This document shows positions 2,263-30,749 of a stretch of 34,434 bases of DNA, piece after piece (position 1 is the first letter of the stretch; every line of letters starts with the position of its first letter). The notes under the pieces are model-generated. The model ran no database searches and had not been told where the DNA came from. It saw only the letters and a program-made list of their open reading frames with translations. Origin of the DNA: a virus; the IMG/VR virus record IMGVR_UViG_3300010885_035415, positions 1 to 34,434 of that record; one strand, written 5' to 3'. The translations under genes were made by a program, and so were the position numbers.

Positions 2263-4074
2263 TTAATCTAACATCAACTGTGTTTTGCCGTTTATCTTTT
2301 CTAGTTGAATAATATTATCTAAACCGTTTTTGATAACGGATTTATTATGTGATACTATATAAATAGACTCTCCGTAATCCTCTACTCTATTTTTTAATAT
2401 TTCTAATATCTTTTCTGCTCCTTTTTCATCTACAGCAGAATCTAATAATTCATCATACATACTAAGAGAAAAGGATGTGCCTGTTTGTGTTCTTAATACA
2501 TCCTGGAACATAAAAAGAATAGCCAAGTCTATACGCTTTCTTTCACCACCGCTAAAATTGAAATAAGAACATTCCTTGCCTTGATCATTGTGTATTGATT
2601 CTTCAAATACTTCATTAAATTCACATTTGCAAGGAGCTTCCAATATATGCAAATAATGGTTAAGTCTGGAATTTAAAAGATTTAACATCTTTTTAATAAT
2701 GTAAGTTTTTACACCTTCTTCCGAAACAACATATTTAGCAGTGTCTAAAATAGTTAATTTCTTTTGTATTGCTTGTATTTGTTTTTCTGATTCTAAAATT
2801 TCTACTTCTATGTTATCTATAAGTTCTAATATACCATCTTTTTCATTTCTTAATATAGAAATTTCTTCAAGAATCTCATTATTTCGTTTTTCTAATTGAC
2901 TTAATTCTTGTACAGCAAGAGCTAAGTCACCCTTGTCTTTATTAAGAATTTTTATCTTTTGTCTAGTAGTTGTAATAGCAGATTCTACTTTAGATTCTTT
3001 TTTATTTAAATCTTCTAAAGATTTTCTTAAAGGTTCTTTTTTATCTTGAAGAGGTATTAATTTGTCTTCTATTTCTTTTAAACAATCTTCTAAATTAGCA
3101 TTTTCATCATACTTTCTTTTACACGTAGGACAAGAAGAATCGGTTTTTAATTTTTGTTTCTGTCTTTCTAAATTACCCAATTCATAATTGGTTTGTAATA
3201 ATTCTGTATTGATATCTGATATAGACTTTTTAACTTTCTTTAAACCTTCTTCTAGAGCTACTAAATCAGATTCTTTGCTCTCTAACTCTGTGTCCAAATC
3301 ATCAATCTTCTTCTTTACCGAATCTTGATTGGATACATTTTTAATCTTTTGATTATTAACTTCTATTTTATCTTTTAAAGCTAGTATTTTATTGTTTTTT
3401 GCTTCTTCATTTTTATCTGCTTGGCTCTTATAGAGCTTTAAATTTCTTTGTTGATCTATAAATTTAGTCGCAATTATATCATTTTCTTTTTTAACATCAT
3501 TATAATCCGATCTTGCTTGTAAAAGCATTTGGCCGAAAATACCAAGATTTAAAATACCTTCTACAAATTTTCTCTTATCTACCTTCTTTTGAGCCATAAA
3601 AGGTAATGTATTATTAGCAGTCATAATAACTGCATTTTGAAATACCTCTTCATTAGCTCCAATTAATTCTTTAATAAATTCATTGGTTTCTGGCATAGTT
3701 GAATGAGTTTCATCAACATCACCTTTATTTAAATGTTTAATTATAGAAACCTTACTAGGGTCTAAAGATCTTTTAAGGGTGTAAGGAGTATGAATAGATC
3801 CGTTATTTACAATAAAATTTAAAATTACTTCACAACCTTTTTTTGATTGATGATGTATAACTTTATCCTTTTTAATATCTCTTATAGTATTACCAAATAA
3901 ACACCAGTATAAAGATTCAATTATGGTACTTTTACCGACACCATTGCGTCCACCCTTGTCCTTATTCTCACCGGTAATAAGATTAATACCAGAAGTAAAA
4001 TTTAATTCTATAGGATTTTCTCCTACAGATAGAAAATTTTGTATTTTTACAGAATTAAACTGAATTTTTCTCAT
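2263..4074 (-). CDS. 46: gp46-like recombination endonuclease subunit (Rad50/SbcC family)
   Basis: This is the ATPase subunit of the T4 gp46/gp47 complex, which resects double-strand ends for recombination-dependent replication and degrades host DNA. The 603-residue protein has a Walker A GRNGVGKST (42-50) and a long charged coiled-coil region (about 195-445) broken by a zinc-hook CPTC (315-318). The ABC signature FSGGERKR (507-514) and Walker B region LSMYDELLD (537-545) follow. The hook pairs two coiled coils through zinc, as in Rad50. The start ATG is the only one giving the full first strand before Walker A. The unusual feature is position: its partner gene 47 lies 11.6 kb upstream in the same operon instead of next door. 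The next gene, queE, starts 13 bp downstream. Identification is firm. Confidence 0.95.
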   Translation of the reverse strand: MRKIQFNSVKIQNFLSVGENPIELNFTSGINLITGENKDKGGRNGVGKSTIIESLYWCLFGNTIRDIKKDKVIHHQSKKGCEVILNFIVNNGSIHTPYTLKRSLDPSKVSIIKHLNKGDVDETHSTMPETNEFIKELIGANEEVFQNAVIMTANNTLPFMAQKKVDKRKFVEGILNLGIFGQMLLQARSDYNDVKKENDIIATKFIDQQRNLKLYKSQADKNEEAKNNKILALKDKIEVNNQKIKNVSNQDSVKKKIDDLDTELESKESDLVALEEGLKKVKKSISDINTELLQTNYELGNLERQKQKLKTDSSCPTCKRKYDENANLEDCLKEIEDKLIPLQDKKEPLRKSLEDLNKKESKVESAITTTRQKIKILNKDKGDLALAVQELSQLEKRNNEILEEISILRNEKDGILELIDNIEVEILESEKQIQAIQKKLTILDTAKYVVSEEGVKTYIIKKMLNLLNSRLNHYLHILEAPCKCEFNEVFEESIHNDQGKECSYFNFSGGERKRIDLAILFMFQDVLRTQTGTSFSLSMYDELLDSAVDEKGAEKILEILKNRVEDYGESIYIVSHNKSVIKNGLDNIIQLEKINGKTQLMLD

Positions 4075-4110: not shown

Positions 4111-5085
4111 TTATTTTTTATAAAAATCCAACCAATACTCTATCATTTCTTGCATTAGATCATCAAAAGAATATTCTAGTTTCCATCCTAATTGAGTTCT
4201 TATCTTTGTAGAATCACCTTTTAGATATTTTAACTCTTCTGGTCTCAAGAACTTAGGATTTTGAACTATATATTTTTCATAATTAAGATCTAATTTAGAA
4301 AAAACTAAATCAACCATTTCTCTTACAGAATGGGTTTCCATAGTAGAAACTACAAAATCATCCGGTTTATCATTGTTTATGATCAAATGCATAGCTTTGA
4401 CATAATCTTTAGAATGACCCCAGTCTCTGTAAGAATCCATATTGCCCAATTCAAGCTTATCTAACAAACCTAATTTGATTTGTACTGCACCTTTAACTAC
4501 TTTATTTGTTACAAAGTTAGAACCTCTTCTGGGTGATTCATGGTTAAATAAAATACCATTACTAGCATGTAACTTGTAAGAATTTCTATAATTTCTTACT
4601 ATATTATATGCAAAAACTTTTGAACATCCGTAAGGACTAACCGGAGACATGGGTGTGGTTTCTCTCTGGAAACCATCTGAGTCAACAGAATTACCAAACA
4701 TCTCAGAAGAACTTGCTTGATAATATCTTGCAGCTGGGCAAGAATTTTTATAAGCTTCTAGAATATTTAATACACCTAATGAGTTTGATAAGACGGTTGT
4801 CTGGGGAACATCAAAACTAATTCTAACATGGCTTTGAGCTGCTAAATTATAAATTTCATCAGGTTGAATGTCACGAATCAATTTTTCTAAACCACTTTGA
4901 TCTAATAAATCACCATATTGTATATGTAATCTATTTCTTGTTTCGTCTGTGAATCTGCTTTGCTGATTTTCACAGACAGAATTTCTTCTTATTATTCCAT
5001 AAACCTCATATCCAAGATTTAAGAGATGTTCTGCAAGATAAGAACCATCTTGCCCGTTGATGCCTGTTATGAATGCTTTTTTCAT
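4111..5085 (-). CDS. gmd: GDP-mannose 4,6-dehydratase
   Basis: This extended short-chain dehydrogenase turns GDP-D-mannose into GDP-4-keto-6-deoxy-D-mannose, the branch point for GDP-L-fucose, GDP-rhamnose and GDP-perosamine. The 324-aa protein has the NADP-binding loop TGINGQDG (7-14), SSSEMFG (125-131), and the catalytic pair Y152-x3-K156 in SPYGCSK. NHESPRRG (181-188) and DSYRDWGHSKDYV (217-229) are GMD hallmarks that separate it from dTDP-glucose dehydratases. The length is a little short of typical GMD (about 340-370). It is the last glycan gene before gene 46 (36-bp gap). The adjacent aminotransferase and acyltransferase suggest an amino-sugar branch. The GT10- and GT11-like genes suggest a fucose branch. 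No clear GDP-fucose synthase is present, so that step would need a host or distant phage gene. Confidence 0.92.
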   Translation of the reverse strand: MKKAFITGINGQDGSYLAEHLLNLGYEVYGIIRRNSVCENQQSRFTDETRNRLHIQYGDLLDQSGLEKLIRDIQPDEIYNLAAQSHVRISFDVPQTTVLSNSLGVLNILEAYKNSCPAARYYQASSSEMFGNSVDSDGFQRETTPMSPVSPYGCSKVFAYNIVRNYRNSYKLHASNGILFNHESPRRGSNFVTNKVVKGAVQIKLGLLDKLELGNMDSYRDWGHSKDYVKAMHLIINNDKPDDFVVSTMETHSVREMVDLVFSKLDLNYEKYIVQNPKFLRPEELKYLKGDSTKIRTQLGWKLEYSFDDLMQEMIEYWLDFYKK

Positions 5086-5086
5086 A

Positions 5087-5674
5087 TTATTTAAATATTT
5101 CCATTTGAGTTAAATCTGGCCAGTCTTTGACGTTCCATTGTCTGGGAGGAGTATTTACAGCTACTGAAAGTTTGTCAAGACCTAATTGAGCTGTTTCTGG
5201 TGTCATATAATAATGATAACCAGCTGTGTCTATGTTTTGCTCTCTCCACGGAACATTGGGTATTCTTCCGTCATAGGACATTTTTTTTATTTGAGTAGCT
5301 GCTAGAGAATCATCTAAAAGAAGAACTCCTCCTCTTCCTAAAGAAAGATGTTTTTGATATTGAAAACTAATACCCATGAATGTTCCGGGTATATAACTAT
5401 TAGGTTTCCAAAGAACTGCTGCGTCTATTATATTTTCTGTTATATAATAATAGTCTTTCCATTCTTCATCTTTCCAATTTAGTTTAATTTTTAATTTATT
5501 TGCTAAAAAAGGAATAGAGAGATAGGTGTGTTTGGGAACTGATATACTATCTACAGATGTATATCTTAAAGCCAATTCTATTCCATGAGTACAACTATCA
5601 ATTGCTATGGCAAAAGGTGCACCAAAAAATTCTGCTATTTTGTTTTCAAATTCTGTTACTGTATTAAAATTCAT
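5087..5674 (-). CDS. short DegT/DnrJ/EryC1/StrS-type PLP sugar aminotransferase
   Basis: Family members transfer an amino group to a keto-sugar nucleotide using PLP. At 195 residues this is about half the usual 360-400. The large-domain core is recognisable: DSCTHGIELAL (26-36) matches the PLP-phosphate loop, IIDAA (82-86) carries the likely pyridine-binding Asp84, and SFQYQKHLSLGRGG (103-116) carries the probable Schiff-base Lys108. The sequence ends soon after an ETAQLGLDKL helix (160-169), so the C-terminal small domain seems missing. The reading frame is intact and tightly packed between gmd (1-bp gap) and an acyltransferase (11-bp overlap), which argues for a functional minimal form and not decay. 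With gmd this would make GDP-perosamine-like sugars. That is inference from context; activity is uncertain. Confidence 0.72.
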   Translation of the reverse strand: MNFNTVTEFENKIAEFFGAPFAIAIDSCTHGIELALRYTSVDSISVPKHTYLSIPFLANKLKIKLNWKDEEWKDYYYITENIIDAAVLWKPNSYIPGTFMGISFQYQKHLSLGRGGVLLLDDSLAATQIKKMSYDGRIPNVPWREQNIDTAGYHYYMTPETAQLGLDKLSVAVNTPPRQWNVKDWPDLTQMEIFK

Positions 5675-6805: not shown

Positions 6806-7216
6806 TTATAAAAATGTTTTATCTAATTCTTGTCCTTCATAAGGACCTGTTTTGTATTCATAAACAATTGTATCTTCTTCCAAAGAAACATAATTGTGTC
6901 CGCCATAAAGAGTAAAACTAGCATCTCCTGGGTTTAATATTTCTTCAGAAATAATTGTATCATCAATATCGTATAATAAGCATTTGACTTTTCCTTTAAT
7001 AACAACCCAACTCTCTTGAGCTATTTGTTTTTCATGAACTCTCTTTTTTTCTATATGCTTATGTGGTTTAAAAGTCTTGTCTATTGGCAATTTAAGAGTT
7101 GCACATTGAATAAAATTCTCTTCTGGTACAACATCTGTTCTGCCTGTAATTTCTTCTAAACGGTTGATTATATGCAGTAATTTATTAGGTTCTATTTTTG
7201 AGTATATATATTTCAT
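6806..7216 (-). CDS. cupin-fold protein, possibly a sugar-modifying enzyme
   Basis: This 136-aa protein has a single cupin barrel. PHKHIEKK (51-58) gives the metal-site His52 and His54, ESWVVIKGKVKCLLYD (68-83) gives Glu68 and the G-x-hydrophobic turn, and GGHNYVSL (105-112) gives His107. The four ligands suggest a bound metal. The C-terminal KTGPYEGQELDKTF recalls the WbuC-type cupins found in O-antigen clusters. It does not show the RGxHAHK motif of FdtA-type 3,4-ketoisomerases, so I prefer a WbuC-like assignment. WbuC function is not well known. It overlaps the GT11 gene by 4 bp and precedes the FkbM gene by 5 bp. A role in sugar synthesis or repair is inferred from the neighbours. Confidence 0.68.
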   Translation of the reverse strand: MKYIYSKIEPNKLLHIINRLEEITGRTDVVPEENFIQCATLKLPIDKTFKPHKHIEKKRVHEKQIAQESWVVIKGKVKCLLYDIDDTIISEEILNPGDASFTLYGGHNYVSLEEDTIVYEYKTGPYEGQELDKTFL

Positions 7217-8022
7217 ATTTTAATCCATGTTTCTGGTATTATATCATGAGTTTGAAAATTTGCAAATGCCGGCCCAAACCAATTACTAGGACCAACTACT
7301 ATTTTATTAGGATTATTATTTAACCAAGCCCCCCACCATCCAAAAGATGAGTTACATATTACATTGTTTTGACATAAAGTCATCATGTAAAGCTCCATAT
7401 AATCTTTATTATTTTCTACAAAAATAAATTTATTACCATTAAATATTTGTTTACACCACTCTATATCATCACTAAATATAAAATATTTGTCTGTTGTATT
7501 TTTAGTTAAATCTATTGCTTGTTTATAATATTCAACAGACTGTACTGGGTGGTGATCTGGTAATCTTACATAATCACCCCTTCTGACATGGATAGATGAA
7601 ATTCTTTTATTAAAAATAATTGGATATTTTTCTAATATATAATTAATAATTTCATCTGTTGGCCTAAAATTATATTTTATTAAATTTTCATATCCTTTAA
7701 AATATTTTTCGCTTTGAAAAAAACCTGAAACGAGTTTATTTTCTTCTGTAAAATCTATTTCTTCGTAATGAAATGGATATTCACAAGATGTTGTATCTGA
7801 AGGAATTGGAAAATTATTAAGATTTTTAAAGATATTAAGATTTTTATAATCAAAACAATAATCTATTTTTGGATTATAAATTGAATCTTCGTTCAAATAT
7901 TTGAGTTGTTCATCTATATTTAAAAAGGATACACTAGTATTTCTTTTTTTGGCAATAGCAGTTATAGCTGCTATTTGAAACATCATATTACATAATCCAC
8001 CCTTTAAATTACAAAAAATCAT
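7213..8022 (-). CDS. GT11 family glycosyltransferase (alpha-1,2-fucosyltransferase-like)
   Basis: GT11 enzymes transfer L-fucose from GDP-fucose in alpha-1,2 linkage, the step that makes the H blood-group antigen. The 269-aa sequence has an N-terminal KGGLCNMMFQIAAITA (7-22), matching the GGLGNQMFQ opening. The signature HVRRGDY (145-151) has both arginines, and the C-terminal motif is NSSFGWWGAWLN (224-235). FFQSEKYFKGYE (101-112) is shared almost exactly with the second GT11-like gene at 11903-12706, so the two are probably old paralogues. The 4-bp overlap with the cupin gene suggests coupling. GMD in the cluster provides the GDP-fucose precursor, but GDP-fucose synthase is not visible. The family call is strong; GDP-fucose as donor is likely but not proven. 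Confidence 0.86.
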   Translation of the reverse strand: MIFCNLKGGLCNMMFQIAAITAIAKKRNTSVSFLNIDEQLKYLNEDSIYNPKIDYCFDYKNLNIFKNLNNFPIPSDTTSCEYPFHYEEIDFTEENKLVSGFFQSEKYFKGYENLIKYNFRPTDEIINYILEKYPIIFNKRISSIHVRRGDYVRLPDHHPVQSVEYYKQAIDLTKNTTDKYFIFSDDIEWCKQIFNGNKFIFVENNKDYMELYMMTLCQNNVICNSSFGWWGAWLNNNPNKIVVGPSNWFGPAFANFQTHDIIPETWIKI

Positions 8023-8718: not shown

Positions 8719-9465
8719 TTATACAAGCCAGGCTCCTACGCTTTTAAGAGAATTAATTTTAGTATCTTTACCAATCATATGATTGGCGTGTATAGCTACT
8801 TTATTTTCCTTTTCATACCAATTAAATTTAAATGTATCATATCCGTTTTGAAATAGTTCTGGATCATAAACGTCAAAGTCACATTCCTTGAAATCTTTTA
8901 TATTAGAACATTTAGAATTTAGATAATTGTATAATAATTCTTGATCATTTTGTTTATAGTCTATTAATTTTATTAATTTGTCTAGTAATATTAAAGAATT
9001 ATCTGTATTCTTTATAGTAAAATTTCCTGTACAAACGTAATTGCTATATAGTATATGACCATCACTTCTAGGTGAGTCTTGTTGAAAGACCATATCATTA
9101 TCTTTTATTTTTTCTAAAATATTTTGTCTTGGGTTTTTAAAGAAAAATACATCACCATCAAAAAAATGGAGAATTTCACATTTTAAAAGTTTTTGATAAA
9201 TTATGCGAAGTTTTAAAGATGTAATATTTTTAAAATTGGGTGAATTAAAATGTTCATCTTTGGTATAAGGGGTTTCTAACAATTTAAGTATAATATCATT
9301 GGATCTGTCTTTTAAAAATTCTGTTAATTCTATATAAGAATCTTTATCTAAAGCAACTACTGTTAATTTAGATAAGTCGTCTTTAAAATTTAAAAAATTT
9401 AATATATTATTTTTTGTAAAATTAATATATCCGTAATTTGTATATGTTAAATATTCAATAATCAT
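8719..9465 (-). CDS. nucleotide-diphospho-sugar transferase (PF03407/GT77-like)
   Basis: A 248-aa GT-A-type protein. KLRIIYQKLLKCEILHFFDG (85-104) leads into a clear DxD, DGDVFFFKNP (103-112), preceded by the helix that packs the donor in this group. Near the C-terminus VAIHANHMIGKDTKI supplies the HxNHxxG-like metal and donor site typical of PF03407 proteins. Members such as plant RRA/XEG113 and RGXT are retaining arabinosyl- or xylosyltransferases; the sugar used here is unknown. It overlaps the next upstream gene (GT6) by 4 bp, so the two are probably co-translated. Fold and DxD are well supported. The exact CAZy family is less certain, with GT8 as the alternative. Confidence 0.66.
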   Translation of the reverse strand: MIIEYLTYTNYGYINFTKNNILNFLNFKDDLSKLTVVALDKDSYIELTEFLKDRSNDIILKLLETPYTKDEHFNSPNFKNITSLKLRIIYQKLLKCEILHFFDGDVFFFKNPRQNILEKIKDNDMVFQQDSPRSDGHILYSNYVCTGNFTIKNTDNSLILLDKLIKLIDYKQNDQELLYNYLNSKCSNIKDFKECDFDVYDPELFQNGYDTFKFNWYEKENKVAIHANHMIGKDTKINSLKSVGAWLV

Positions 9466-10145
9466 GGGGTTCTATATTCACTGTGATTTTTATCCAGAGC
9501 TAAAAGTTTTTTATCAAAAGGGATACTCCAAGACTCTGGATAACAATAACTTGGGTCTAATATTTTTGTAGGAACATTATCTATCATATACCTGTTTAAA
9601 TGGCTTTCATCATGCCATATCGCAATAATACCTCTTGAATAATCATTATCTATATTATTTGATAATGTTTCAGACATCTTTAAAAATTCTTTACTATTTC
9701 CTCCATTAAAACCACCCGCAAAATATTGCATATTTTCATGTGGATATACACAAGCTAGAGAATTTGGATTGGTCTCTGGTGTTCCCCTTCTTTCATAATG
9801 CCCCGGATGTTGAGTTGCTACTAAATCACTCAAAATTTCATCACCCACATTGTTTACAAATCTCATATCAGCATCACAATAATACAAATAATCCATTTCA
9901 GATAAAATTTCTTTGCTGTTAAAGAATAATTTGTATCTTTCTAGCGTCATAAAAGGCCAATTTTTATGGACTGTTTCTATTTTTTTAATGTTTCTTTTTG
10001 TTTCTATATTAGAAATTTCTTGATTTGTAAAAACAAAATATGTCACGTCATGATCTTTTAAAAACCATTCGTCCGCACTGTTTAATAACGGATTAACAAA
10101 ATTTATGTATTTGTTTGTAGCAATTATAAGGAGCCCTATTTTCAT
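9462..10145 (-). CDS. GT6 family glycosyltransferase (ABO/alpha-1,3-Gal(NAc)T-like)
   Basis: GT6 enzymes are retaining transferases that add Gal or GalNAc in alpha-1,3 linkage. Human ABO transferases do this on the Fuc-alpha-1,2-Gal H antigen. This 227-aa protein keeps the catalytic core without the animal stem and membrane anchor. It has a DAD metal site (91-93, in YYCDADMRF), HPGHYERR (113-120), YFAGGFNGG (141-149) for the donor and acceptor pocket, and WHDESHLNRY (177-186), whose Glu180 matches the catalytic Glu303 of human GTA/GTB. PTKILDPSYC (192-201) and a C-terminal lysine-rich stretch also match. By my alignment, human positions 266 and 268 correspond to Ala143 and Gly145; Gly at 268 is the GalNAc-type residue, a weak hint at UDP-GalNAc. 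It overlaps the genes on both sides by 4 bp. The family assignment is very strong. Confidence 0.92.
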   Translation of the reverse strand: MKIGLLIIATNKYINFVNPLLNSADEWFLKDHDVTYFVFTNQEISNIETKRNIKKIETVHKNWPFMTLERYKLFFNSKEILSEMDYLYYCDADMRFVNNVGDEILSDLVATQHPGHYERRGTPETNPNSLACVYPHENMQYFAGGFNGGNSKEFLKMSETLSNNIDNDYSRGIIAIWHDESHLNRYMIDNVPTKILDPSYCYPESWSIPFDKKLLALDKNHSEYRTP

Positions 10146-10939
10146 TTTTGTGTTAATTTTTTTATTTTTTCGTAAATTCTACTTTTCCAATTTTGCCAAT
10201 ATATGGCTTTATTAAAATTTTCATTAATACTTTCAGTTTTTAAAAGGTAGTCTTTTTCTGTTAAAGAATTACAAATTTCAATTATTTCATCTATAGTATT
10301 TGCTTTGTAGATAGTATCTGTGTTAAAAAATTGCTCTATATTAAGACATCCTAAAACTATAGGAATACTTTTACATAAAATAGGATCTAGTGTTTTTTCT
10401 GTAAAATGATTTTTACAAGTAATATTTTCTATGCAAATATGGAACATTGTGTCAAATAAAGGTTCTTTTTCCTCACCTAAAACTGGATTATTTTCAAATC
10501 CTTCAATACAACCATGTTTACTTCTATAAAAATTTTTTGGTATTTTTATTTCATCCTGTCTTCTCCATAGTTCATGTCGAAGTTGATGATTATACGTAGA
10601 ATTTTTAGTACCAACTACAGTAGAAACTCCAAATATTTTTGGTTTGTTAAAATTATAATTTTCAAAATCTACCCATTTTGCCGCTGGTTCGTGTAAACTT
10701 GAATGTTTAACATTATTTAAAATTTGTTCTTCATATGCAAATATATGAGTAAACATATTTTGATATGCTATTATAGCTTCATTAAGACCTGATATAACAT
10801 TAGGTTCGTTTTGAATTAAAATTTTATGTTTAGCATTTGAGTTTTTAGTCCCGTCAAAACAATCAACCCATATTTCTACATCTGGAATATCTTCATATTC
10901 ATCTAAATTAAAATTCCAGGTAGAATTACATTTAATCAT
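10142..10939 (-). CDS. GT10 family glycosyltransferase (alpha-1,3-fucosyltransferase-like)
   Basis: GT10 enzymes transfer fucose from GDP-fucose in alpha-1,3 or 1,4 linkage, making Lewis-type structures. In this 265-aa protein the hallmark is FHICIENITCKNHFTEKTLD (166-185): IEN (170-172), then FTEK (179-182), then SIPIVLG (191-197). It matches the ENS...YxTEK...PxxxG donor site of the family. The N-terminal half (IPDVEIWVDC, KILIQNEPNVISGLNE) fits a GT-B acceptor domain in which an NEP motif is common. It is somewhat shorter than bacterial FucTs (about 350-480) and lacks their heptad repeats and C-terminal amphipathic tail, so membrane association is not predicted. It overlaps the epimerase gene by 8 bp and GT6 by 4 bp. 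Some phage GT10-like enzymes may use other donors. Confidence 0.76.
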   Translation of the reverse strand: MIKCNSTWNFNLDEYEDIPDVEIWVDCFDGTKNSNAKHKILIQNEPNVISGLNEAIIAYQNMFTHIFAYEEQILNNVKHSSLHEPAAKWVDFENYNFNKPKIFGVSTVVGTKNSTYNHQLRHELWRRQDEIKIPKNFYRSKHGCIEGFENNPVLGEEKEPLFDTMFHICIENITCKNHFTEKTLDPILCKSIPIVLGCLNIEQFFNTDTIYKANTIDEIIEICNSLTEKDYLLKTESINENFNKAIYWQNWKSRIYEKIKKLTQK

Positions 10940-11822
10940 TTGTTTTAATTATTGTTTTTAACCAATTTTCAACTTTTTCCTTTGGACTCCAATCAAAAGT
11001 ATTTAAAGTTTTTATATTATCACAACAACTATATTTTAATTCGCCTATTTTAAGAGATGAGTATTCTATTTTATTAGATATCAATGACGCTAGATAGTTT
11101 ATTGATATAGATTTACTAGTTCCTACATTATATATATTGCCGTAAGAAGGTAATTCTTTTAAAGATGCTAATATGTTTATATCCGCTACATCTTCTACAT
11201 AAACAAAATCCCTGGTTTGTAACCCATCACCGTAAATTTTAATGGGTATATTTTGTTTATAATTATTTAAAAATTTTACCATGACTGCTGCATATGGGCT
11301 ATTCGACATAGTAGATCCATAAACATTAAAATAACGCAATACTACGGTTTCTATCTTGTAAAGTTCCCAGTAAATCTTACAAAGATATTCGCCAAATAAT
11401 TTAGATGCAGAATATAAATTTAATGGATTAGTTTCATCAGTTTCTTTGTATTTTTCATCTGAATTTTTTTCTTTATATACAGCAGAAGTAGATGAAAAAA
11501 CTAATCGTTTAATATTTTTTATCCTACAACATTCTAAAACATTTAAGGTTGTGTTTGAATTGTTTATCCCTGATAGTCTAGGATTATTTTTACAATACTC
11601 TATTGATACGTCAGCAGCTAGGTGAAACACTCTATCAACTGAATCAAAAATAGGAAGTATTTCTTCAAAATTATTAAGATCTATATCAAAATATTTAACA
11701 TTTTGAATTTTATTATATGTTTGAGCTTTATCTATTACAATAACCTCATCACCTTGATCAATCAATTTCTTGGCCAATACACTTCCTATAAAGCCTTTAC
11801 CTCCAGTTACTATACTTTTCAT
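10932..11822 (-). CDS. NAD-dependent sugar-nucleotide epimerase (GalE/WbpP-like extended SDR)
   Basis: It is probably a UDP-hexose 4-epimerase interconverting UDP-Glc/Gal or UDP-GlcNAc/GalNAc. The 296-aa protein has the Rossmann loop TGGKGFIG (6-13), HLAAD (67-71), FSSTSAVY (109-116) and the catalytic Y137-x3-K141 in YSASK. VLRYFNVYG (161-169), DGLQTRDFVYVEDVA and YNVGTS follow, all common in GalE-like enzymes. There is no GMER-specific signature, so I do not call it GDP-fucose synthase, but that cannot be excluded. Its product, UDP-Gal or UDP-GalNAc, would be the donor for the GT6 enzyme two genes downstream and for the galactosyltransferase-like GT at 12713. The upstream gap of 80 bp is the widest in the cluster and seems to hold a gene relic. 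Confidence 0.8.
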   Translation of the reverse strand: MKSIVTGGKGFIGSVLAKKLIDQGDEVIVIDKAQTYNKIQNVKYFDIDLNNFEEILPIFDSVDRVFHLAADVSIEYCKNNPRLSGINNSNTTLNVLECCRIKNIKRLVFSSTSAVYKEKNSDEKYKETDETNPLNLYSASKLFGEYLCKIYWELYKIETVVLRYFNVYGSTMSNSPYAAVMVKFLNNYKQNIPIKIYGDGLQTRDFVYVEDVADINILASLKELPSYGNIYNVGTSKSISINYLASLISNKIEYSSLKIGELKYSCCDNIKTLNTFDWSPKEKVENWLKTIIKTND

Positions 11823-11902: not shown

Positions 11903-12706
11903 TTATATAACCTTCCATTCAGAAGGATATAAATCTTTAGTATCTAAAGTTCCATCAGTTATTTTAAACCATTTTTTGGGTGCAAAAACAATTTTATTTG
12001 GATTATTATTAAGCCAAGATCCCCACCAACCAAACGAAGAATTAGAAATAATATTATGTTGACATAATGTTTGTATAAAAAATTGTTGTATATAGTTGTA
12101 TTTTTCTAAAAAGTAAAAATTACCATATCCAGAAAACATTTTTTTGGCTTCTGTAAAATTATTTGTAGTAACAAAAAACTTCATATTTTTACCAAAGAAG
12201 TTTATAGAATTTTTTAAATAATCTATATTTTCATGTACATTGTAATATCTTTCGTATGATGCATCTAAATGAATCTTAGGATTATATGAGCGAGTATTGT
12301 CGTAGAATCTTAATTGAATGCAAACAGAATTTTCGTAATCTAAATTTTTTATACTATCTAGTATAGGTTTAACCGGTTTGTAATAATTTCTGATTTTGTC
12401 CTCAGCATGCTTGAAATATTTTTCACTTTGAAAAAACCCATATAAATCTACATTAGAGTTTAAATTAGGAATTGGAGTATAGTGATAGGTAGGTTCTTCA
12501 TAGAAATGAAAAGAACCTTCAAAATGATCAGTTTCTGGTATAGGATTTTTAAAACATTTAGAATATTCATGTTCTGAGATCATTCCCTTCCATTTAGGGA
12601 AAATATATTGATCATTAATAGAAGATGCATATCCTATAGTAGCAGCAATTTGAAATAATTGATTTCCAAATTCTCCATGTCTTCCTAGATTACTAAATGT
12701 TATCAT
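11903..12706 (-). CDS. GT11-like glycosyltransferase with divergent signature
   Basis: A second GT11-fold protein of 267 aa. It keeps the N-terminal HGEFGNQLFQIAA (10-22), the shared GFFQSEKYFK (90-99) and the C-terminal NSSFGWWGSWLNNNPNKIV, nearly identical to its paralogue at 7213-8022. The signature HxRRGDY, however, reads QLRFYDN (131-137): His, the second Arg and Gly are lost, and the first Arg and the Asp remain. In fucosyltransferases of this type the first Arg is the more critical donor contact, so activity is possible but a changed donor or acceptor is plausible. It lies 6 bp downstream of the GT2/GT7-like gene. Family sure, function uncertain. Confidence 0.74.
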   Translation of the reverse strand: MITFSNLGRHGEFGNQLFQIAATIGYASSINDQYIFPKWKGMISEHEYSKCFKNPIPETDHFEGSFHFYEEPTYHYTPIPNLNSNVDLYGFFQSEKYFKHAEDKIRNYYKPVKPILDSIKNLDYENSVCIQLRFYDNTRSYNPKIHLDASYERYYNVHENIDYLKNSINFFGKNMKFFVTTNNFTEAKKMFSGYGNFYFLEKYNYIQQFFIQTLCQHNIISNSSFGWWGSWLNNNPNKIVFAPKKWFKITDGTLDTKDLYPSEWKVI

Positions 12707-12712: not shown

Positions 12713-13516
12713 TTATTTCCAAGTTTCAATATAAGATTCAAGCTGTTCTTTGTTCATTTTAGATATTTTACTCCATTCTTTACTATTTAAATCAAAAAAT
12801 GGATTTTCTGCTCTTTGAGCATATCTATGAAATAAATGAAAACAAACAGATGTATTTCTTGTATCTCTAAAAGTAGAATAATTTAAAATTTTTAGTCTAG
12901 AGACAATTTCATTATCTTCACATCCCCAACCTATAAATTTTTCATTATATCCACCAGCTTTGAGGAATAATTCTTTGTTAAACATAACGATTCCTCCTGT
13001 TCCTAAATGATCTGAACTTGTGCATCTAACATGGAAATTTCTATAACTAGAACTTAAAGGAAGATTGTAATTTCCATCTAGTCTATTTAATAAAACATCA
13101 TAGTCTAGATTATTTTTTAAAAATTCATCATGTAAATTAAAATCTGTATCAATAAAATATCCGTTATAAGGCCAAGCAGCAGTTGCTCCATTTAATAATG
13201 CGTCTCTACACATTAAAATAGAAGATATAGGAACGATACAGTCTGTGTCTAAAGACACTACTATAGGATTATTAGACATTTTAAATCCATGATTTAATGC
13301 TCTTGTTCTATAATAAACAGAATCATTTTTCATGAAATTAAATGAAGTGCCTTTAGGATACTTCAGTTTATCAAACGCTTTATTATGTTCTGAATCGTCT
13401 TCTATAAAAATAAATTTAACGTCTGGTATATTATTATAATAATAATCCATGATAGTTTGAAGGTTTTTGAGCCTATCATCACTATCATATCTTAAATGTG
13501 TAACAAATGTTATCAT
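12713..13516 (-). CDS. GT2 glycosyltransferase with GT7-type galactosyltransferase C-terminus
   Basis: The 267-aa protein begins with a GT2 domain: first strand ITFVTHLRYDSDDR, FIFIEDDS, and the metal site LDTD (89-92). It ends with a GT7 C-terminal module: LGTGGIVMFNKELFLKAGGY (171-190), then GWGCEDNE (196-203), which matches the WGxEDDD catalytic and acceptor motif of beta-1,4-galactosyltransferases. CFHLFH (225-230) gives a metal-binding His. This combination is known from chondroitin and heparosan polymerases and from polypeptide GalNAc transferases. A beta-linked Gal or GalNAc is therefore the likely transferred sugar. It would provide the Gal acceptor that GT11 fucosylates. It overlaps the 481-aa gene by 4 bp. 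Confidence 0.8.
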   Translation of the reverse strand: MITFVTHLRYDSDDRLKNLQTIMDYYYNNIPDVKFIFIEDDSEHNKAFDKLKYPKGTSFNFMKNDSVYYRTRALNHGFKMSNNPIVVSLDTDCIVPISSILMCRDALLNGATAAWPYNGYFIDTDFNLHDEFLKNNLDYDVLLNRLDGNYNLPLSSSYRNFHVRCTSSDHLGTGGIVMFNKELFLKAGGYNEKFIGWGCEDNEIVSRLKILNYSTFRDTRNTSVCFHLFHRYAQRAENPFFDLNSKEWSKISKMNKEQLESYIETWK

Positions 13517-14958
13517 GGTTTAAAAATAATTCCTATTCCTTTTTGGTTTTTATAATGTTTTCTTAGTTCTATATGTTGAAAATTATTTTTTATTTCATCC
13601 CAAAATTTATGAACTCCTCCTTCTTCAGCATATCCTATATCATGAAGTGCAATTATACCACCAGGTCGAACTAAATCAAAATATATTTCAAAATCCTTTT
13701 TAACTGCATTGTAACTATGATCTCCATCTATGAAAACAAAATCTAATAAATCATTATTTAATAATTCTACTACCTTTTGTTTAGTTCTTTCATATTGAGA
13801 ATAGTCTTGGATTAAATAAAGCTTATTTTTATTTTTTTTAGCCCAATTTTTCCATTCATTATTAATAATATCTTCTTGTTTTTTACATCTAGGATCTGCA
13901 GCTCCGCAGAATTTACTAATAGGTAAATCTATGCTTATTACTTTAGATCCTGGTTCTGATAATTCTAACCAATGATGTAAAGACCATCCAAAATACGATC
14001 CTATTTCTAATACGTTTTTAGCTTTTAATTTTTTAAATTCTTCTAAAAGAATATCAAATTCTGGAAGATATTGTGTTTCTTGTATTCTTACATCAATAAT
14101 ATTTTTTAATTCAGACCTTATTTTAATGTCTTTTAAAATATTTTTAATATCTTCTGTGTTATGATTACTTTGAATCATAGAAGGTACAGTATTATGTTTT
14201 TTATAAAAAACTTTTAATCCTTCTTCTACTTGACGCATAAAAGTTGTTTCGTCTTTAGCTAAAGAAGTTTGAGCCTTTTCATTCTTTGCTTCTTTAATAT
14301 AATTTTCACTACCAGTTATATCAGCAAACCACCAAAAAGGGGTGTATTCACCGTTTTGAATGATTCTATAGGTATGTTCTACGTGTTCCCATGCATTATA
14401 AAATTCCTCATCTAGTAACCCTGCATTGTCTAAAGCTGATTTGTGAAAATAACAAAACATAGCAACTATATGCTCATAAAGAGATATAGAAACATTGTTT
14501 TTATAATTTATAACCATTTTAGGGTTAGCTGGTGATTCTTGAGTTGCTAATTGCCTCTTTGAGAGATCACCAATAATAGAGGGGTCTTTTTGAACTCTAT
14601 TCCAAGGACTACCTGGACCAAAATTAAAATGTTTTATACCGGTTTCTTTATAAGCCTCGATATATTTTTCAAATATATCATTATTTGAAATAATGCAATC
14701 ATCTTCCATAGTGAATATATGATCACAATTAAAATCTAGTAAAGCTTTAAGAATTTTATTTTTTGATTTAGATATTCCTAAATTTTCTGGATTCTGAATA
14801 AACGTAATTTTATCTGAATCAAGATTATAATCAAAAGGCTCACCATCATTTACTATAACAATATAATCAACTTTATCAAGATCAATACTTTCTATACACT
14901 TTTCAAAAAAGTGTGGTCTATTACAAGTTGTTATTCCAACACCTATTTTTTCTTTCAT
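13513..14958 (-). CDS. bifunctional GT2 glycosyltransferase - SAM methyltransferase fusion
   Basis: A 481-aa two-domain protein. Residues about 1-255 are a GT2 domain: GVGITTCNRPHFFEKCIESI (6-25), VNDGEP (36-41), the metal site EDD (85-87) in FTMEDDCII, and AWEHVEHTYR (189-198) for the acceptor and base region. After a helical linker (265-310) comes a class I methyltransferase of the Methyltransf_24 type: VLEIGSYFGWS (316-326), ISIDLP (341-346), FIDGDHSY (409-416) with the DxDH metal-like site, and PGGIIALHD (432-440). One polypeptide would add a sugar and methylate it or the chain end, which in some O-antigens controls chain length. The frame is continuous. It overlaps genes on both sides by 4 bp. 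Confidence 0.85.
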   Translation of the reverse strand: MKEKIGVGITTCNRPHFFEKCIESIDLDKVDYIVIVNDGEPFDYNLDSDKITFIQNPENLGISKSKNKILKALLDFNCDHIFTMEDDCIISNNDIFEKYIEAYKETGIKHFNFGPGSPWNRVQKDPSIIGDLSKRQLATQESPANPKMVINYKNNVSISLYEHIVAMFCYFHKSALDNAGLLDEEFYNAWEHVEHTYRIIQNGEYTPFWWFADITGSENYIKEAKNEKAQTSLAKDETTFMRQVEEGLKVFYKKHNTVPSMIQSNHNTEDIKNILKDIKIRSELKNIIDVRIQETQYLPEFDILLEEFKKLKAKNVLEIGSYFGWSLHHWLELSEPGSKVISIDLPISKFCGAADPRCKKQEDIINNEWKNWAKKNKNKLYLIQDYSQYERTKQKVVELLNNDLLDFVFIDGDHSYNAVKKDFEIYFDLVRPGGIIALHDIGYAEEGGVHKFWDEIKNNFQHIELRKHYKNQKGIGIIFKP

Positions 14959-15722: not shown

Positions 15723-16771
15723 GTTAATTTTAAATAAAGAGTGTCTAAATAATTTACTATATCTTCTTTGTCTTGCACTTCTAAAGATTCAACAAAGTCT
15801 TTTATACTTTTAGATATATCAATAGCTGTATATTCTATGTTATTAGCGTTTAAATCATCGTCCGTATTAGATAATTTGTAATCTATACGAAAGAATTTAG
15901 GTCCAAGATTTTGAATTTTGGACGACAAAAGAGGTATTTTTTCTGGTTCTATATTTTTATCTATAATAAAACTAACTATATTATTAGGCACATTATCCTT
16001 TAAATATTGAGAATCTTGTTTACCTGATTGTAAATCATTTAAACTTACTTTAATATGTTTTGGTGATATGATATTTTCAAAAAAATCTATTTCTTCCGTC
16101 TCTACATTTAAAATATAAACCCCTCTATCATCACCCGTATCACCAAAATTCTGTTGATATGGACTTCCTACATATAAGATTTTACCTTTATCATATTTTC
16201 TGAGCTCTCTTTTGTGGAAATGACCGGATAATACAAAAGGAGATTTTTCTAATAAGGTTTGTGATTCAAATCCATGATCACAAACCTTAAAAGAATTCAT
16301 ATAGAAGGACTGTATTTCAAAATGTCCAAAACAAATATCCGATTCTGGAATATCTTTCAACTCTGTACCCCAAGGGATTAAAGATATTTTTTTATCAGCA
16401 ACTAAAATAATGATAGGATTTTTGTCTACTATAACAATATTATCCCAACCATCTAGCATAGTTATTGAATTAACATCCGATCTGTCTTTATAATAACAAT
16501 CATGGTTACCGGTGGATATAAAAATACGAAAATCTTTTAATATAGAAAAGAATTCTTTAGCAATAGTTAAGGTATTAACCGATATTTCATTTCTATTATG
16601 AAATATGTCTCCTGGAATAATAATATCATTTATACCTTTTTGAGAGTATAATTCCTTAACCCATTCAGCAAATTCTAAAACACTCTTGTGCCACATAGGA
16701 CTATCTTGTCCTAGTCCTATGTGGATATCTGAAAATACTCCTATATTTTTACTTTTTATATTGTAAATCAT
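15719..16771 (-). CDS. 47: gp47-like recombination endonuclease subunit (Mre11/SbcD family)
   Basis: This is the nuclease partner of gp46, processing DNA ends for recombination-dependent replication. All calcineurin-type phosphoesterase motifs are visible in the 350-aa protein: FSDIHIG (13-19), PGDIFHNR (53-60), STGNHD (86-91), FGHFE (148-152) and LSGHFHKRE (181-189), supplying the Asp, His and Asn ligands for two metal ions. The C-terminal third would form the capping and gp46-binding part. It overlaps gene 55 by one base and the first glycan gene by 4 bp. In T4 its downstream neighbourhood leads to gene 46; here 15 glycan genes intervene. Identification is firm. Confidence 0.95.
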   Translation of the reverse strand: MIYNIKSKNIGVFSDIHIGLGQDSPMWHKSVLEFAEWVKELYSQKGINDIIIPGDIFHNRNEISVNTLTIAKEFFSILKDFRIFISTGNHDCYYKDRSDVNSITMLDGWDNIVIVDKNPIIILVADKKISLIPWGTELKDIPESDICFGHFEIQSFYMNSFKVCDHGFESQTLLEKSPFVLSGHFHKRELRKYDKGKILYVGSPYQQNFGDTGDDRGVYILNVETEEIDFFENIISPKHIKVSLNDLQSGKQDSQYLKDNVPNNIVSFIIDKNIEPEKIPLLSSKIQNLGPKFFRIDYKLSNTDDDLNANNIEYTAIDISKSIKDFVESLEVQDKEDIVNYLDTLYLKLT

Positions 16772-17472
16772 TACTCTCTATTACGTTCTTTCATTATTTT
16801 AATCTGATTATTCTTCATTAAATTATTATAATTCTCAGACATAGACATTAATTCATTTTGATACTTCTCATGTGTATCCCTCATATGCTTTTCTTTCTTA
16901 ATTCTGTTTCTAAAAGCATTAAAAGCGATGCGAGTAAAGTAAGAAAAGGGATTAGTACCCTTAACTCTATCATACTTCTTAGACATAAGTGCCTTGAACA
17001 TTCTTATAATACCATCACCTACCATTTCTTCTCTGTAAGTGTAGTTAATAAAGTTAGGAGCATAACTGAGTTTGTGTGAAATTTTACTAACCATCTCTGC
17101 TAAATCATTTGACATATGACCCGAATCATAATACTTGACGATTTCATCATCAAAATGTTTAGGATCTACATAAAATTTTTCCTTATCTGCAGGTTTCTTA
17201 CCTCTTCTTTTTTTAACAGGCTCTGTAGGCTCTACCGGTTCTGCAACAATTACTTTAGTAACTATTTCTTCTAATTCTTCTTCGTCTAATTCATCATCTT
17301 CATCAATATCTTCTTGTTTACTTAAAATATTAATTTCATCATCATCATCATCATCTGAAAAATCATCTGTTGCATCAAGATCAATACCTAAATTGGCAGC
17401 TTCTTCTTCTGAGTAGTTAATAAAATCATCATTATTTAATGATTTACGATAATTCTTTTTCCGTGTGTTCAT
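16771..17472 (-). CDS. 55: gp55-like late transcription sigma factor
   Basis: T4 gp55 directs host RNA polymerase to TATAAATA late promoters together with gp33 and the gp45 clamp. The C-terminal part of this 233-aa protein (about 100-200) matches its sigma-2-like core: YVDPKHFDDEIVKYYDSGHM (101-120), then APNFINYTYREEMVGDGIIR and NPFSYFTRIAFNAFRNRIKK. The protein is longer than T4 gp55 (185 aa) because of a highly acidic N-terminal stretch (31-70, with six consecutive Asp) and a basic KKRRGKK (87-93). Its start overlaps uvsW by 29 bp, and its last base overlaps the start of 47. Its presence predicts late promoters of the TATAAATA type nearby. Confidence 0.88.
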   Translation of the reverse strand: MNTRKKNYRKSLNNDDFINYSEEEAANLGIDLDATDDFSDDDDDDEINILSKQEDIDEDDELDEEELEEIVTKVIVAEPVEPTEPVKKRRGKKPADKEKFYVDPKHFDDEIVKYYDSGHMSNDLAEMVSKISHKLSYAPNFINYTYREEMVGDGIIRMFKALMSKKYDRVKGTNPFSYFTRIAFNAFRNRIKKEKHMRDTHEKYQNELMSMSENYNNLMKNNQIKIMKERNRE

Positions 17473-18862
17473 ATTTTTCTAATTTGTAAAGTTTCTTCCT
17501 TTCAGATAAGTGTATTTTACCATACTTTGTATTATCTGCAATGTCAAATATGGTAGCCATTTTTTTGGTGTGGTGTAAACGCAATGCTCGACCTATAGAT
17601 TGCATAATTTTAATTTTAGCTTTGCCAGCTGAAGCAAAAATAATATTATGTAAATTAGGAATATTAATACCTGTGCTAAAAATTTTAGATACAGCTACTA
17701 CTATGATATCATTACGTTCATTCATTAAAGCTCGGATATTTTCTCTATCTTCGACTTCTGTAGAACCTCTAATAAAATAAATAGGTCTTTTGGTTTGTAT
17801 ACTATCTAGAGTGGCTTTTATAATTTCACCATGAGCTATACGATCAACCATTATAAGAGTATTATTTTCTAATTTAGCTGCTAATCTAGAAATAATTTCG
17901 TTTCTTCTATTATTGTTTATAAGAAAATCTAATTCATTTTCATAAGCAGCCGTAGGTAATGAATAGTCTGAAGTGGATGGTCGTGTACTATGAGCAATAT
18001 TTAAAATGACTATTTTAAAATCAGATACATGAGATTGTTTTTTAAGGTCATCCGTCTTCTGTTCGAAAGTTATAGGGCCTAATTTACCAATAATATTCCA
18101 CTGATCTATTTCAGAAGGTGGCATAGTGCCTGTAAATCCAAATTTATAGTTTGTATTAATAAAATTTAATACCTTATTGAGTTGATTACCCTTCCTTAAT
18201 GAATGAGCTTCATCCATTAATAAAATTTTAACATCAGCTAATTTAGATAAATCCGAACTTTCACTTAATAAAATTTGGGTACCAGCTACTATAATAGTAG
18301 CTTCTGGATCTGGTTTATTGTTGCCAGACCATTTAGTAACTCCTTTTAATCCATATGATGTAAAATCATCTGCAGTCTGTTCTACCAATTGAAGAGAAGG
18401 AACTGTAACTAAAACTAAAGCATTAGGATCTTTAAGATTAAGTCTTAGACTTTCAATAAGAGTAGCACAAATTAAGGTTTTGCCACCCGCTGTAGGAATT
18501 AAAGTGACTCCTCTGCCTTGCCTAAGAGCTGATATAACGGATTTCTCTTGATAATCTCTTAACTTTAAATTTAACTCTTTAATTTCTGGGTTATCAAACC
18601 CAGGATTAAATATAGTTTTGATATCCGGATCAATACTATATTCATAATGATTTAATTCTGCAAAAGTAATAACATCTTTAAAAAGACCTACATCAAATTT
18701 ACCAGATGGAGTTATTGCATATAATCGTGGTTGTATGTAAGGGTTATTTCTTCTATATGCCGGATTAGCTATAGAAAATTTTTCTCTAATCAATGATATA
18801 CTCTTTAAGTCACCGCTGATTTGAATTTGTTTTTTTTTATTTATTAAAGCAAATGATATCAT
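17444..18862 (-). CDS. uvsW: UvsW-like SF2 DNA/RNA helicase
   Basis: UvsW unwinds branched DNA and R-loops. It shifts T4 from origin-dependent to recombination-dependent replication and helps stalled-fork repair. The 472-aa protein has an N-terminal domain (1-95) like T4 UvsW, then a Q-like LRDYQ (101-105), Walker A IPTAGGKT (122-129), motif Ia VPSLQLVEQT, DEAH (217-220), motif III FTGTMPP and motif VI QSIGRALR. Length is a little under T4 UvsW (503 aa). It overlaps uvsY by 4 bp (ATGA) and 55 by 29 bp. Identification is firm. Confidence 0.94.
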   Translation of the reverse strand: MISFALINKKKQIQISGDLKSISLIREKFSIANPAYRRNNPYIQPRLYAITPSGKFDVGLFKDVITFAELNHYEYSIDPDIKTIFNPGFDNPEIKELNLKLRDYQEKSVISALRQGRGVTLIPTAGGKTLICATLIESLRLNLKDPNALVLVTVPSLQLVEQTADDFTSYGLKGVTKWSGNNKPDPEATIIVAGTQILLSESSDLSKLADVKILLMDEAHSLRKGNQLNKVLNFINTNYKFGFTGTMPPSEIDQWNIIGKLGPITFEQKTDDLKKQSHVSDFKIVILNIAHSTRPSTSDYSLPTAAYENELDFLINNNRRNEIISRLAAKLENNTLIMVDRIAHGEIIKATLDSIQTKRPIYFIRGSTEVEDRENIRALMNERNDIIVVAVSKIFSTGINIPNLHNIIFASAGKAKIKIMQSIGRALRLHHTKKMATIFDIADNTKYGKIHLSERKKLYKLEKYEHTEKELS

Positions 18863-19257
18863 GTGGTCTCGAGCTTATTAATCTCGATGATATTTTTTAA
18901 ATCATACGTCATACTTCTAAAGATGGATTCTACTTTTTCTAAGTATTCTATAACTAATTTTGCATTACCCATTTCTTCATCTATTTTTTGTATAGCTTCT
19001 GATTCTTCAATCTTTCTATCTAAAGCTGATTTAGGTATACCAGGAGGAATACCTTCTCTTTCATAAGAAGCATGGACTGCAGCTCTTATAGTCTTTCTTT
19101 TCTTTTCTAAAGAATAAAGATATCTTTTTTGTTCTATGAGACGTGCTACCCATTTATGTTTAATAGCAGGTAATCTTAATTGTTTTTCTAAAAGATTTAG
19201 TTCATCTACTTTAGTATCTTCTTCTAATTCTTTTTTGATTTCTTCAATTATAACCAT
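18859..19257 (-). CDS. uvsY: UvsY-like recombination mediator protein
   Basis: UvsY loads the UvsX recombinase onto gp32-coated single-stranded DNA. The 132-aa protein is close to the T4 length (137) and mostly helical and charged. KHKWVARLIEQKRYLYSLEK (34-53) parallels the T4 KW...K...E region. A basic KKRKTIRAAVHASY (52-65) follows, then a SALDRKIEESEAIQKIDEEM segment, and a C-terminal helix ending near IIEINKLE like the T4 C-terminus. Sequence identity to T4 looks low, so context carries weight: directly upstream of and overlapping uvsW, first gene of the replication operon. The gene begins about 6 nt after the expected start of a sigma70-type promoter. Confidence 0.8.
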   Translation of the reverse strand: MVIIEEIKKELEEDTKVDELNLLEKQLRLPAIKHKWVARLIEQKRYLYSLEKKRKTIRAAVHASYEREGIPPGIPKSALDRKIEESEAIQKIDEEMGNAKLVIEYLEKVESIFRSMTYDLKNIIEINKLETT

Positions 19258-19297: not shown

Positions 19298-19525
19298 CAA
19301 TTAATAGATAATATCATGGAGAATATGAATGCTGCAGGAGCTGGTGGAGTTTTTGGAACCCCACAACAAGCTGTATATAATCCTCCTTCAAATGTAAATT
19401 CTGGTGATACCTATGCCCCTAATAATGCTATGAATCTTTTTAGGTTTCCTAAAGTAACCAAAAGAAAAAAACCAGAACTTTTAGTATTTGGTAAAAATAA
19501 AAAGAAAGTTAGAAAGAAAAAGTAA
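19280..19525 (+). CDS. small conserved-looking protein with basic tail (unknown)
   Basis: An 81-aa protein that I do not recognise. The N-terminus (MASRFQQLIDNIMENMNAAG) is a short amphipathic helix. The middle is rich in Gly, Asn and Pro and looks disordered. The last third ends with KRKKPELLVFGKNKKKVRKK, very basic, which could bind nucleic acid or an acidic protein surface. It is divergent from uvsY with only 22 bp between the start codons. Its stop TAA shares one base with the ATG of the SegE-like gene, so the two are coupled. Small proteins of this type occur near uvsY in marine T4-like phages; that is recollection, not shown here. Confidence 0.7.
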   Translation: MASRFQQLIDNIMENMNAAGAGGVFGTPQQAVYNPPSNVNSGDTYAPNNAMNLFRFPKVTKRKKPELLVFGKNKKKVRKKK

Positions 19526-19959
19526 TGGATACTGGTCATTGGATATTAGATGACGGTGTTTTTATAGATGATAATACTTTTGGCTTTATCTATGAAATAT
19601 GCAATACAGCTAATGGTAGGAAATATATTGGTAAGAAACAATGCATATCTCGGTTTAAACGCAAACCTTTGAAAGGCAAAAAGAATAAGCGCATAGATTA
19701 TAAAGAATCTGATTGGAAAAGTTATACAAGCTCTTCTAATGAATTAAATGCTGATATAGAGAAGTATGGTAAAGACAAATTTACTTTTAAAATATTAAAG
19801 GCTTGTGGATCTAAGTGGGAAAATGCTTACTTTGAAATAAAGGAACAATTAGAACGTAACGTTTTAATGAGAGATGATTATTATAATGGGATAATCAATG
19901 TCCGTATTGGTACCCCACCAAAAGAAATCAAGTCAAAATTCCAGTCTGAGGTTAAGTAG
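19525..19959 (+). CDS. SegE-like GIY-YIG endonuclease
   Basis: GIY-YIG proteins make DNA breaks; Seg proteins in T4 are homing-type nucleases that spread their own locus. In this 144-aa protein the motif reads GFIYEI (20-25) then KYIGKK (33-38): FIY and YIG in place of GIY and YIG, as in the SegE group. Arg43 (QCISRFKRK) may be the catalytic Arg, and Glu104 (AYFEIKEQLE) the metal-binding Glu. There is no recognisable C-terminal DNA-binding repeat, so target specificity may be loose, or it may act in packaging or repair. One-base overlap with the preceding gene, and four bases to the next. Family likely; whether it is a mobile homing nuclease is uncertain. Confidence 0.75.
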   Translation: MDTGHWILDDGVFIDDNTFGFIYEICNTANGRKYIGKKQCISRFKRKPLKGKKNKRIDYKESDWKSYTSSSNELNADIEKYGKDKFTFKILKACGSKWENAYFEIKEQLERNVLMRDDYYNGIINVRIGTPPKEIKSKFQSEVK

Positions 19960-22524: not shown

Positions 22525-23343
22525 ATGATATTTTTTAATTCTTCAATGCCACGCAGCATGAGTACACTTCTTCAGTGTATTCTTAATCAAAATCCAGAAA
22601 TTTGTGCTACGCCTACCGATCCTGTGTTAGAGTATTTATATGGAGCTCGTCTGAATTTTACTAATACTCCCGAAGTCAAAGCCATGGATCAAGAACTTGC
22701 TTTAAAGACTTGGAGAGGTTTTTGTAAAGGGGGACTTGAAGGTTATGCAAATTCTTATACTGATAAGCCTAACCTCTGTATTAAGACACGAGGTGGCACA
22801 ATTCATTATAAGTGGTTTGAATCATTTATGTCTGAAAAGCCAAAGATGATTTGCATGGTAAGAAATTTGAAGAGCGTCTTCTCTTCTATGGAAAAAATTT
22901 ATAGAAAAAACCAAGAACACCATCAGTCTATTCAGAATCATGCCGAGATGAAAGGTACAAGCACAGCTAAGAGAATTGATGCTTGGGTAGCAGGTCCTCC
23001 AGTTGGTCTAGCTCTAGAAAGACTACAACAGACATTCCTCGAAGGTATTAACAAAGATGTTCTCTATATCAGAGCTGAAGATCTTACTTCTTATCCTCAA
23101 AGAGAGATGGATAAGATTTATCAGTATCTTGGTTTGGAATCATTTAAGCATGATTTTGATGACGTAGAACAATCTATTAAAGAAGATGATGCGATTTACG
23201 GTCTAACAAGTGACCTTCATACTATTAGACAAAAAGTACAACCTTTATCTCCAGACTATGATAAGATTCTAGGTAAGCAAATTTGCGATTGGATTGATAA
23301 TACTTTTGCTTGGTATCAACAAGGATTTGGATATACAAAATGA
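22525..23343 (+). CDS. PAPS-dependent sulfotransferase family protein
   Basis: Sulfotransferases move sulfate from PAPS to a hydroxyl or amine, here probably on a sugar. The 272-aa protein starts with a 5'-phosphosulfate-binding loop NSSMPRSMSTLLQCIL (5-20) and has the 3'-phosphate motif MVRNLKSVFSSM (111-122, with Arg113 and Ser120). No signal anchor is present, so it is cytoplasmic. Its base composition differs from its neighbours: the stretch 22981-23040 is half G+C, while 24061-24120 in the next-but-one gene is under one fifth. That suggests a separate origin or a conserved phage gene adapted to high expression. It starts 3 bp after the GT9-like gene and shares ATGA with the next gene. 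Confidence 0.82.
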   Translation: MIFFNSSMPRSMSTLLQCILNQNPEICATPTDPVLEYLYGARLNFTNTPEVKAMDQELALKTWRGFCKGGLEGYANSYTDKPNLCIKTRGGTIHYKWFESFMSEKPKMICMVRNLKSVFSSMEKIYRKNQEHHQSIQNHAEMKGTSTAKRIDAWVAGPPVGLALERLQQTFLEGINKDVLYIRAEDLTSYPQREMDKIYQYLGLESFKHDFDDVEQSIKEDDAIYGLTSDLHTIRQKVQPLSPDYDKILGKQICDWIDNTFAWYQQGFGYTK

Positions 23344-27901: not shown

Positions 27902-27910
27902 ATATAATAA

Positions 27911-30256: not shown

Positions 30257-30262
30257 ATTTTA

Positions 30263-30742: not shown

Positions 30743-30749
30743 TGTTTAA

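Follow-up and report, generated by a model that had tools for sequence, protein, structure and literature searches.

A T4-like phage appears to carry a metal-dependent glycosyltransferase of family 6 (GT6), the family of the human ABO transferase, within its sugar-gene cluster. We put at roughly 0.55 the probability that this enzyme carries out metal-dependent, retaining α-1,3 transfer of GalNAc (or Gal) onto fucosylated galactose, a figure that covers the chemistry and not the target. The 34,434-bp stretch analysed here (the window), an IMG/VR virus record, has no completeness estimate and is much shorter than T4-like genomes, so it is probably a fragment.

A T4-like contig with a sugar-gene cluster

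Judging by its marker genes, the contig belongs to a T4-like phage. A megablast of window positions 1–25000 against phage records gave no match, two core proteins are only ~27–35% identical to their counterparts in cyanophages and other T4-like phages, and the window showed no photosynthesis gene. The sugar cluster occupies the minus strand from ~4.1 to 15.7 kb and includes methyltransferases besides its glycosyltransferases, dehydratase and epimerase. The features needed here are as follows.

2263..4074, minus: T4 gp46-like recombination endonuclease subunit (phrog_77, 7e-101), a T4-like marker
4111..5085, minus: GDP-mannose 4,6-dehydratase (GMD; PF16363, 1e-113; TIGR01472, 386 bits, below the equivalog cut-off of 415)
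7213..8022, minus: GT11, the α-1,2-fucosyltransferase family, with canonical HVRRGD (PF01531, 5.8e-22; phrog_2644, 6.5e-57)
8719..9465, minus: PF03407 nucleotide-diphospho-sugar transferase, downstream of GT6 with a 4-bp overlap
9462..10145, minus: GT6 glycosyltransferase, 227 aa (D91-A92-D93; E180 catalytic; A143-G144-G145 donor positions)
10142..10939, minus: GT10-like (α-1,3-fucosyltransferase C-terminal domain), weak (PF00852, 8.6e-6, 26.0 bits against a cut-off of 23.9)
10932..11822, minus: NAD-dependent sugar epimerase, best score GalE-like, below all equivalog cut-offs
11903..12706, minus: second GT11-like gene (PF01531, 5.2e-12), with the degenerate motif QLRFYD
12713..13516, minus: GT7C/GT2-type glycosyltransferase (Pfam)
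13513..14958, minus: fusion of GT2 and methyltransferase (PF13578; Pfam)
16771..18862, minus: late sigma factor (gp55-like) and UvsW-like helicase, T4-like markers (PHROG)
18859..19257, minus: UvsY (PF11056, 1.9e-11), a T4-like marker

The GT10-like gene lies directly upstream of GT6, likewise with a 4-bp overlap, and the junctions of these two genes and the PF03407 gene look like those of a translationally coupled operon. Against the α-1,3-fucosyltransferases of the PDB the GT10-like gene gave values of 0.003–0.014. The canonical GT11, 1.4 kb from GT6, had no PDB relative by sequence search, and the second GT11-like gene, with its degenerate motif, may be inactive or divergent. GMD catalyses the first step to GDP-fucose and also feeds other GDP-deoxyhexoses.

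Other genes of the window deserve mention in their own right. Within the cluster, a DegT/DnrJ sugar aminotransferase (5087–5674, minus) has 195 aa against a Pfam profile of 360 and is only partially recognized by Pfam; it keeps a PLP-lysine-like QYQKHLSLGRGG segment. Its length is close to the median (~204 aa) of 70 similar ORFs from the fetched loci, which suggests a conserved half-size form and not decay. On the plus strand, opposite to the glycosyltransferase cluster, are two overlapping sulfotransferase-family genes (22525–23343 and 23310–23894), and the same strand holds a SegE-type GIY-YIG homing endonuclease (19525–19959). Finally, the minus strand at 24806–33506 encodes three fibre-like proteins that are very large and repetitive and gave no Pfam match, one of them Cys/Tyr-rich and another with many GGG-x-N-x-A repeats.

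The GT6 protein, its fold and its active site

The minus-strand frame from 10145 to 9462 runs from ATG to stop, fills these coordinates exactly and contains YYCDADMRF, YFAGGFNGG and WHDESHLNRY; a plus-strand reading of the same interval is ruled out by stops throughout. Residues 2–219 match PF03414 (Glyco_transf_6) at E 7.2e-44 (150.3 bits, cut-off 25) over profile positions 76–303 of 313, PHROG 3317 (‘glycosyltransferase’) matches at 2e-60, and a PDB sequence search returned the Bacteroides ovatus enzyme BoGT6a (2e-45) and the human ABO transferase (7e-39). Chance is excluded as a source of this match, and it is near certain that the protein is a GT6, as the earlier note had proposed from motifs alone. 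An AlphaFold2 model built from 58 window and locus sequences (pLDDT 96, pTM 0.92) bore out the same assignment: the best 50 PDB matches were all GT6 enzymes (human GTA/GTB variants and BoGT6a), with TM (query) of 0.86–0.95, and the predicted fold is GT-A of the GT6 type.

In this family DxD binds the metal-UDP-sugar complex and a glutamate sits at the sugar site. By alignment, D211/D213 of human GTA correspond to D91/D93 of the phage protein, so that the intact DAD site claimed earlier was upheld on the minus-strand frame, with DxD at the subdomain junction; E303 corresponds to E180, which lies in W177-H178-D179-E180 (E192 in BoGT6a). Near the C-terminus, the phosphate-binding K346 is matched by K219 (K231 in BoGT6a) and R352 by R225. 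Residue mapping likewise agreed with the earlier note in placing Ala and Gly at the equivalents of human 266 and 268, positions 266/267/268 being A143/G144/G145. In the acceptor pocket, H113 (human H233), G115 (G235) and T122 are as in GTA and BoGT6a, and human D326 is replaced by P203, as by P215 in BoGT6a.

Thus the phage protein resembles human GTA/GTB in its GT-A fold (TM ~0.9 or more), DxD, WHDE and K346/R352 equivalents at 37% identity, but has Ala where the human enzymes have Leu/Met at 266, and consists of the catalytic domain alone, without the human N-terminal stem. BoGT6a (PDB 4AYJ/4CJ8; 40% identity over 220 columns) shares its AGG donor triplet and has H122/G124, E192 and K231 at the corresponding positions, but is NxN and metal-independent, whereas the phage protein is DxD.

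The A/B synthases use Fuc-α-1,2-Gal as acceptor. The H113/G115 pair is that of the H-antigen users human GTA and BoGT6a, while bovine α-3GT has Q/W (substrates from PMC3961637 and general knowledge). This pair, together with the nearby GT11, is why we favour a fucosylated acceptor. As to the donor, UDP-GalNAc, towards which the earlier note had leaned, is a fair guess by analogy, because BoGT6a has the same Ala-Gly-Gly and transfers GalNAc to give an A-antigen-like product (PMC3961637). Donor triplets do differ among phage GT6s (AGG, QGC, CGG), so the donor sugar may differ among them too.

A decayed, functionless passenger gene is hardly credible as an explanation: one relative (L023) is apparently split into two frames, but the ORF here is intact with its catalytic residues, has start/stop overlaps with both neighbours and a high-confidence predicted fold, and belongs to a family widely retained in phages.

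Linkage to GT11 and the proposed reaction

Among 42 phage GT6 loci of at least 12 kb, dereplicated at 70% identity, GT11 lay within 10 kb in 32, compared with 15 of 57 GMD-seeded phage control loci (Fisher p 9e-7), and within 2 kb in 20, compared with four of the 57 controls (p 4e-6). In phages as well as in bacteria (Francisella, Methylomonas and Chitinophagales among them), GT11 and GT6 were found as direct neighbours, with either gene first; the phages had eight such pairs against 3.7 expected (p 0.02) and the cells six against 3.2 (p 0.06). GT11 adjoins or lies near GT6 in the annotated cyanophages P-SSM2, ACG-2014f and B23, and in cyanophage DSL-LC02 it is directly upstream of GT6 in a cluster that also holds GMD and GDP-L-fucose synthase; the cultured cyanophages Bellamy and S-CAM9 carry the pair too. 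As to other controls, PF03407 seeds gave no loci and GT7C seeds only six, and in GT25-seeded, cyanophage-only loci GT6 and GT11 were not associated (odds 0.87); to some extent, then, the linkage may mean no more than that the same phages commonly have both genes. We therefore regard the link as likely, and as partly confounded by lineage.

On the reading that we prefer, the GT-A-fold enzyme would bind Mn2+ or Mg2+ and a UDP-sugar through D91/D93, as the motif suggests, and would, as a retaining enzyme, attach GalNAc (or Gal) at position 3 of an α-1,2-fucosylated galactose. The GT11 1.4 kb away is the candidate maker of that acceptor, unless an equivalent enzyme supplies it. A glycan of the host surface (LPS or O-antigen type), or a virion glycoprotein, might thereby be capped during infection with an A/B-antigen-like end, and the benefit could be superinfection exclusion or another change of the surface. 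Several points weigh on the other side. No GDP-L-fucose synthase was recognizable in the window, the epimerase at 10932..11822 not being recognizable as one by equivalog profiles; but the window is probably only part of a genome, and GDP-fucose could come from the host. In addition, GMD also supplies other sugars, GT11 was absent within 10 kb from 10 of the 42 dereplicated loci, and D326 is not conserved.

These 10 loci, the lack of association in the GT25-seeded set and the variation of donor and acceptor residues across phages fit a different acceptor, with GT6 adding α-1,3-linked Gal or GalNAc to an O-antigen sugar of the host that lacks fucose or is decorated in another way, and the GT11 neighbours serving other branches. 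The enrichment of GT11 over the GMD-seeded controls, the recurrent adjacency in both orders and the match of H113/G115 to H-antigen-using enzymes all argue against such a change, which we hold to be possible and somewhat unlikely.

An alternative target is the virion itself, with the whole cluster glycosylating phage structural proteins, for example the fibre-like proteins at 24806–33506, instead of host LPS. Three large repetitive genes of this kind share the contig, and, among the cluster genes scanned, none was recognized as a lipid-carrier initiating transferase, flippase or polymerase. Sugar clusters of jumbo phages and cyanophages have, however, been described as modifying the surface polysaccharides of the host, those of jumbo phages perhaps excluding other phages (PMC7824862), and nothing in our analysis ties a transferase to a fibre. 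We consider this target unlikely; it is compatible with the chemistry proposed above, so the confidences given to these readings do not sum to one.

Relatives in phages, bacteria and vertebrates

The phage GT6 is not new in kind, its relatives being known beforehand. A 2014 count listed GT6 in 36 bacterial species, two cyanophages and two unicellular eukaryotes, with NxN in nearly all bacterial members and a DXD enzyme in Parachlamydia that requires metal (PMC3961637). We found GT6 in 71 phage records, many of them, including P-SSM2, annotated as ‘glycosyltransferase family 6’. In the literature searched we met neither an activity assigned to a phage GT6 nor a report of a phage GT11–GT6 pair, the latter not being proof of absence. 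P-SSM2 (Prochlorococcus phage, AAX44645) and other Kyanoviridae are likewise T4-like and carry a DxD GT6 in a GT11/GMD/epimerase cluster, and the P-SSM2 protein is 46% identical to that of the window; their hosts are cyanobacteria. The closest GT6s in the annotated-phage collection come from the uncultured huge phages LR745206 (635 kb; 67% identity) and LR756502 (642 kb; 62%), both records being themselves unannotated. Beyond phages, a 958-aa Megaviridae environmental protein (BFVD A0A5J6VM96) matched with a GT6 domain (TM 0.93), placing GT6 in giant-virus sequence as well.

The earlier note had set this protein, as a DxD enzyme, apart from mostly NxN bacterial GT6s. In our scans, whose patterns were built from mainly phage sequences and of whose genome loci the top scorers were retrieved (the counts are thus not unbiased frequencies), DxD was found in 107 of 110 phage GT6s from viral contigs and phage records (the other three NxN), in 20 of 20 Dependentiae loci and in 20 of 21 Chlamydiota loci (the other DxN), and NxN in three of three Bacteroidota loci and in nine of 10 in the Gastranaerophilales phylum. 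The protein does fall in the DxD group, but this is the usual state among phage GT6s; and the rule for bacteria held for Bacteroidota, Gastranaerophilales and the other cells sampled, and failed for Chlamydiota and Dependentiae. Under the same limits, GT6 was present in 22 of 234 genomes of the phylum of the Chlamydiae MAG, 28 of 101 of that of the Babeliales/Dependentiae MAG, three of 395 sampled Bacteroidota and 11 of 386 of the phylum of the Gastranaerophilales genome. The Dependentiae frequency is unusually high for the family; some genomes have two or three copies, and all loci read are DxD.

Individual loci add further variety. A 15-kb contig binned as Bacteroidetes (L028) carries a DxD GT6 that groups with phage rows, and the contig may be phage. 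In two viral contigs, an FkbM-methyltransferase-like domain is fused to an NxN GT6 (L013:9374-10699 and L015:4730-5995); the gene order is GMD-GT11-GT10-(FkbM+GT6) in L015 and the same in L013, with one additional ORF ahead of the fusion.

The spread of GT6 over vertebrates, some bacteria and a few viruses is puzzling, and the earlier note suggested that phage members could bear on how the family moved between animals and bacteria. In the 80-row tree the D/N difference is explained by only two changes, and the window GT6 groups with huge-phage GT6s in both trees (99/94 with 80 rows, 98/97 with 98 rows), its starred clade including LR745206 and LR756502 in the 80-row tree and again LR756502 in the 98-row tree. 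The 98-row tree brings nearly all NxN rows together (98/77) and makes Chlamydiota and Dependentiae, whose GT6s are cellular genes, a separate starred set (97/98); these are DxD and mostly AGG like the phage protein, with which they share a larger DxD set. Vertebrates, represented by two sequences on a long branch (one identical to PDB 1GWV), fall within this starred DxD set (100/99) with Chlamydiota/Dependentiae and most phages, their sister not being resolved in a tree whose bootstrap had not settled. AU tests rejected neither a placement with NxN bacteria (p 0.30 and 0.33) nor one with Chlamydiota/Dependentiae (p 0.36), and were compatible with NxN as a single clade (p 0.48), the phage row L013 shifting between trees. 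These trees do not establish the suggested bearing on transfer and settle neither the source of vertebrate GT6 nor the direction of transfer. The broadest proposal is that T4-like phages of aquatic habitats possess an entire ABO-like capping module in portable form (GDP-fucose supply, GT11, DxD GT6), and that vertebrate GT6 arose from the phage/endosymbiont DxD pool and not from NxN bacteria; we rate it as quite improbable.

For phage GT6s, the tendency to lie near GT11 gives a ‘glycosyltransferase of unknown role’ a specific and cheap assay, on 2'-fucosyllactose. For the family, the rule that bacterial GT6 is NxN is now qualified: the metal-dependent form is carried by phages and also by two phyla with intracellular symbionts among their members.
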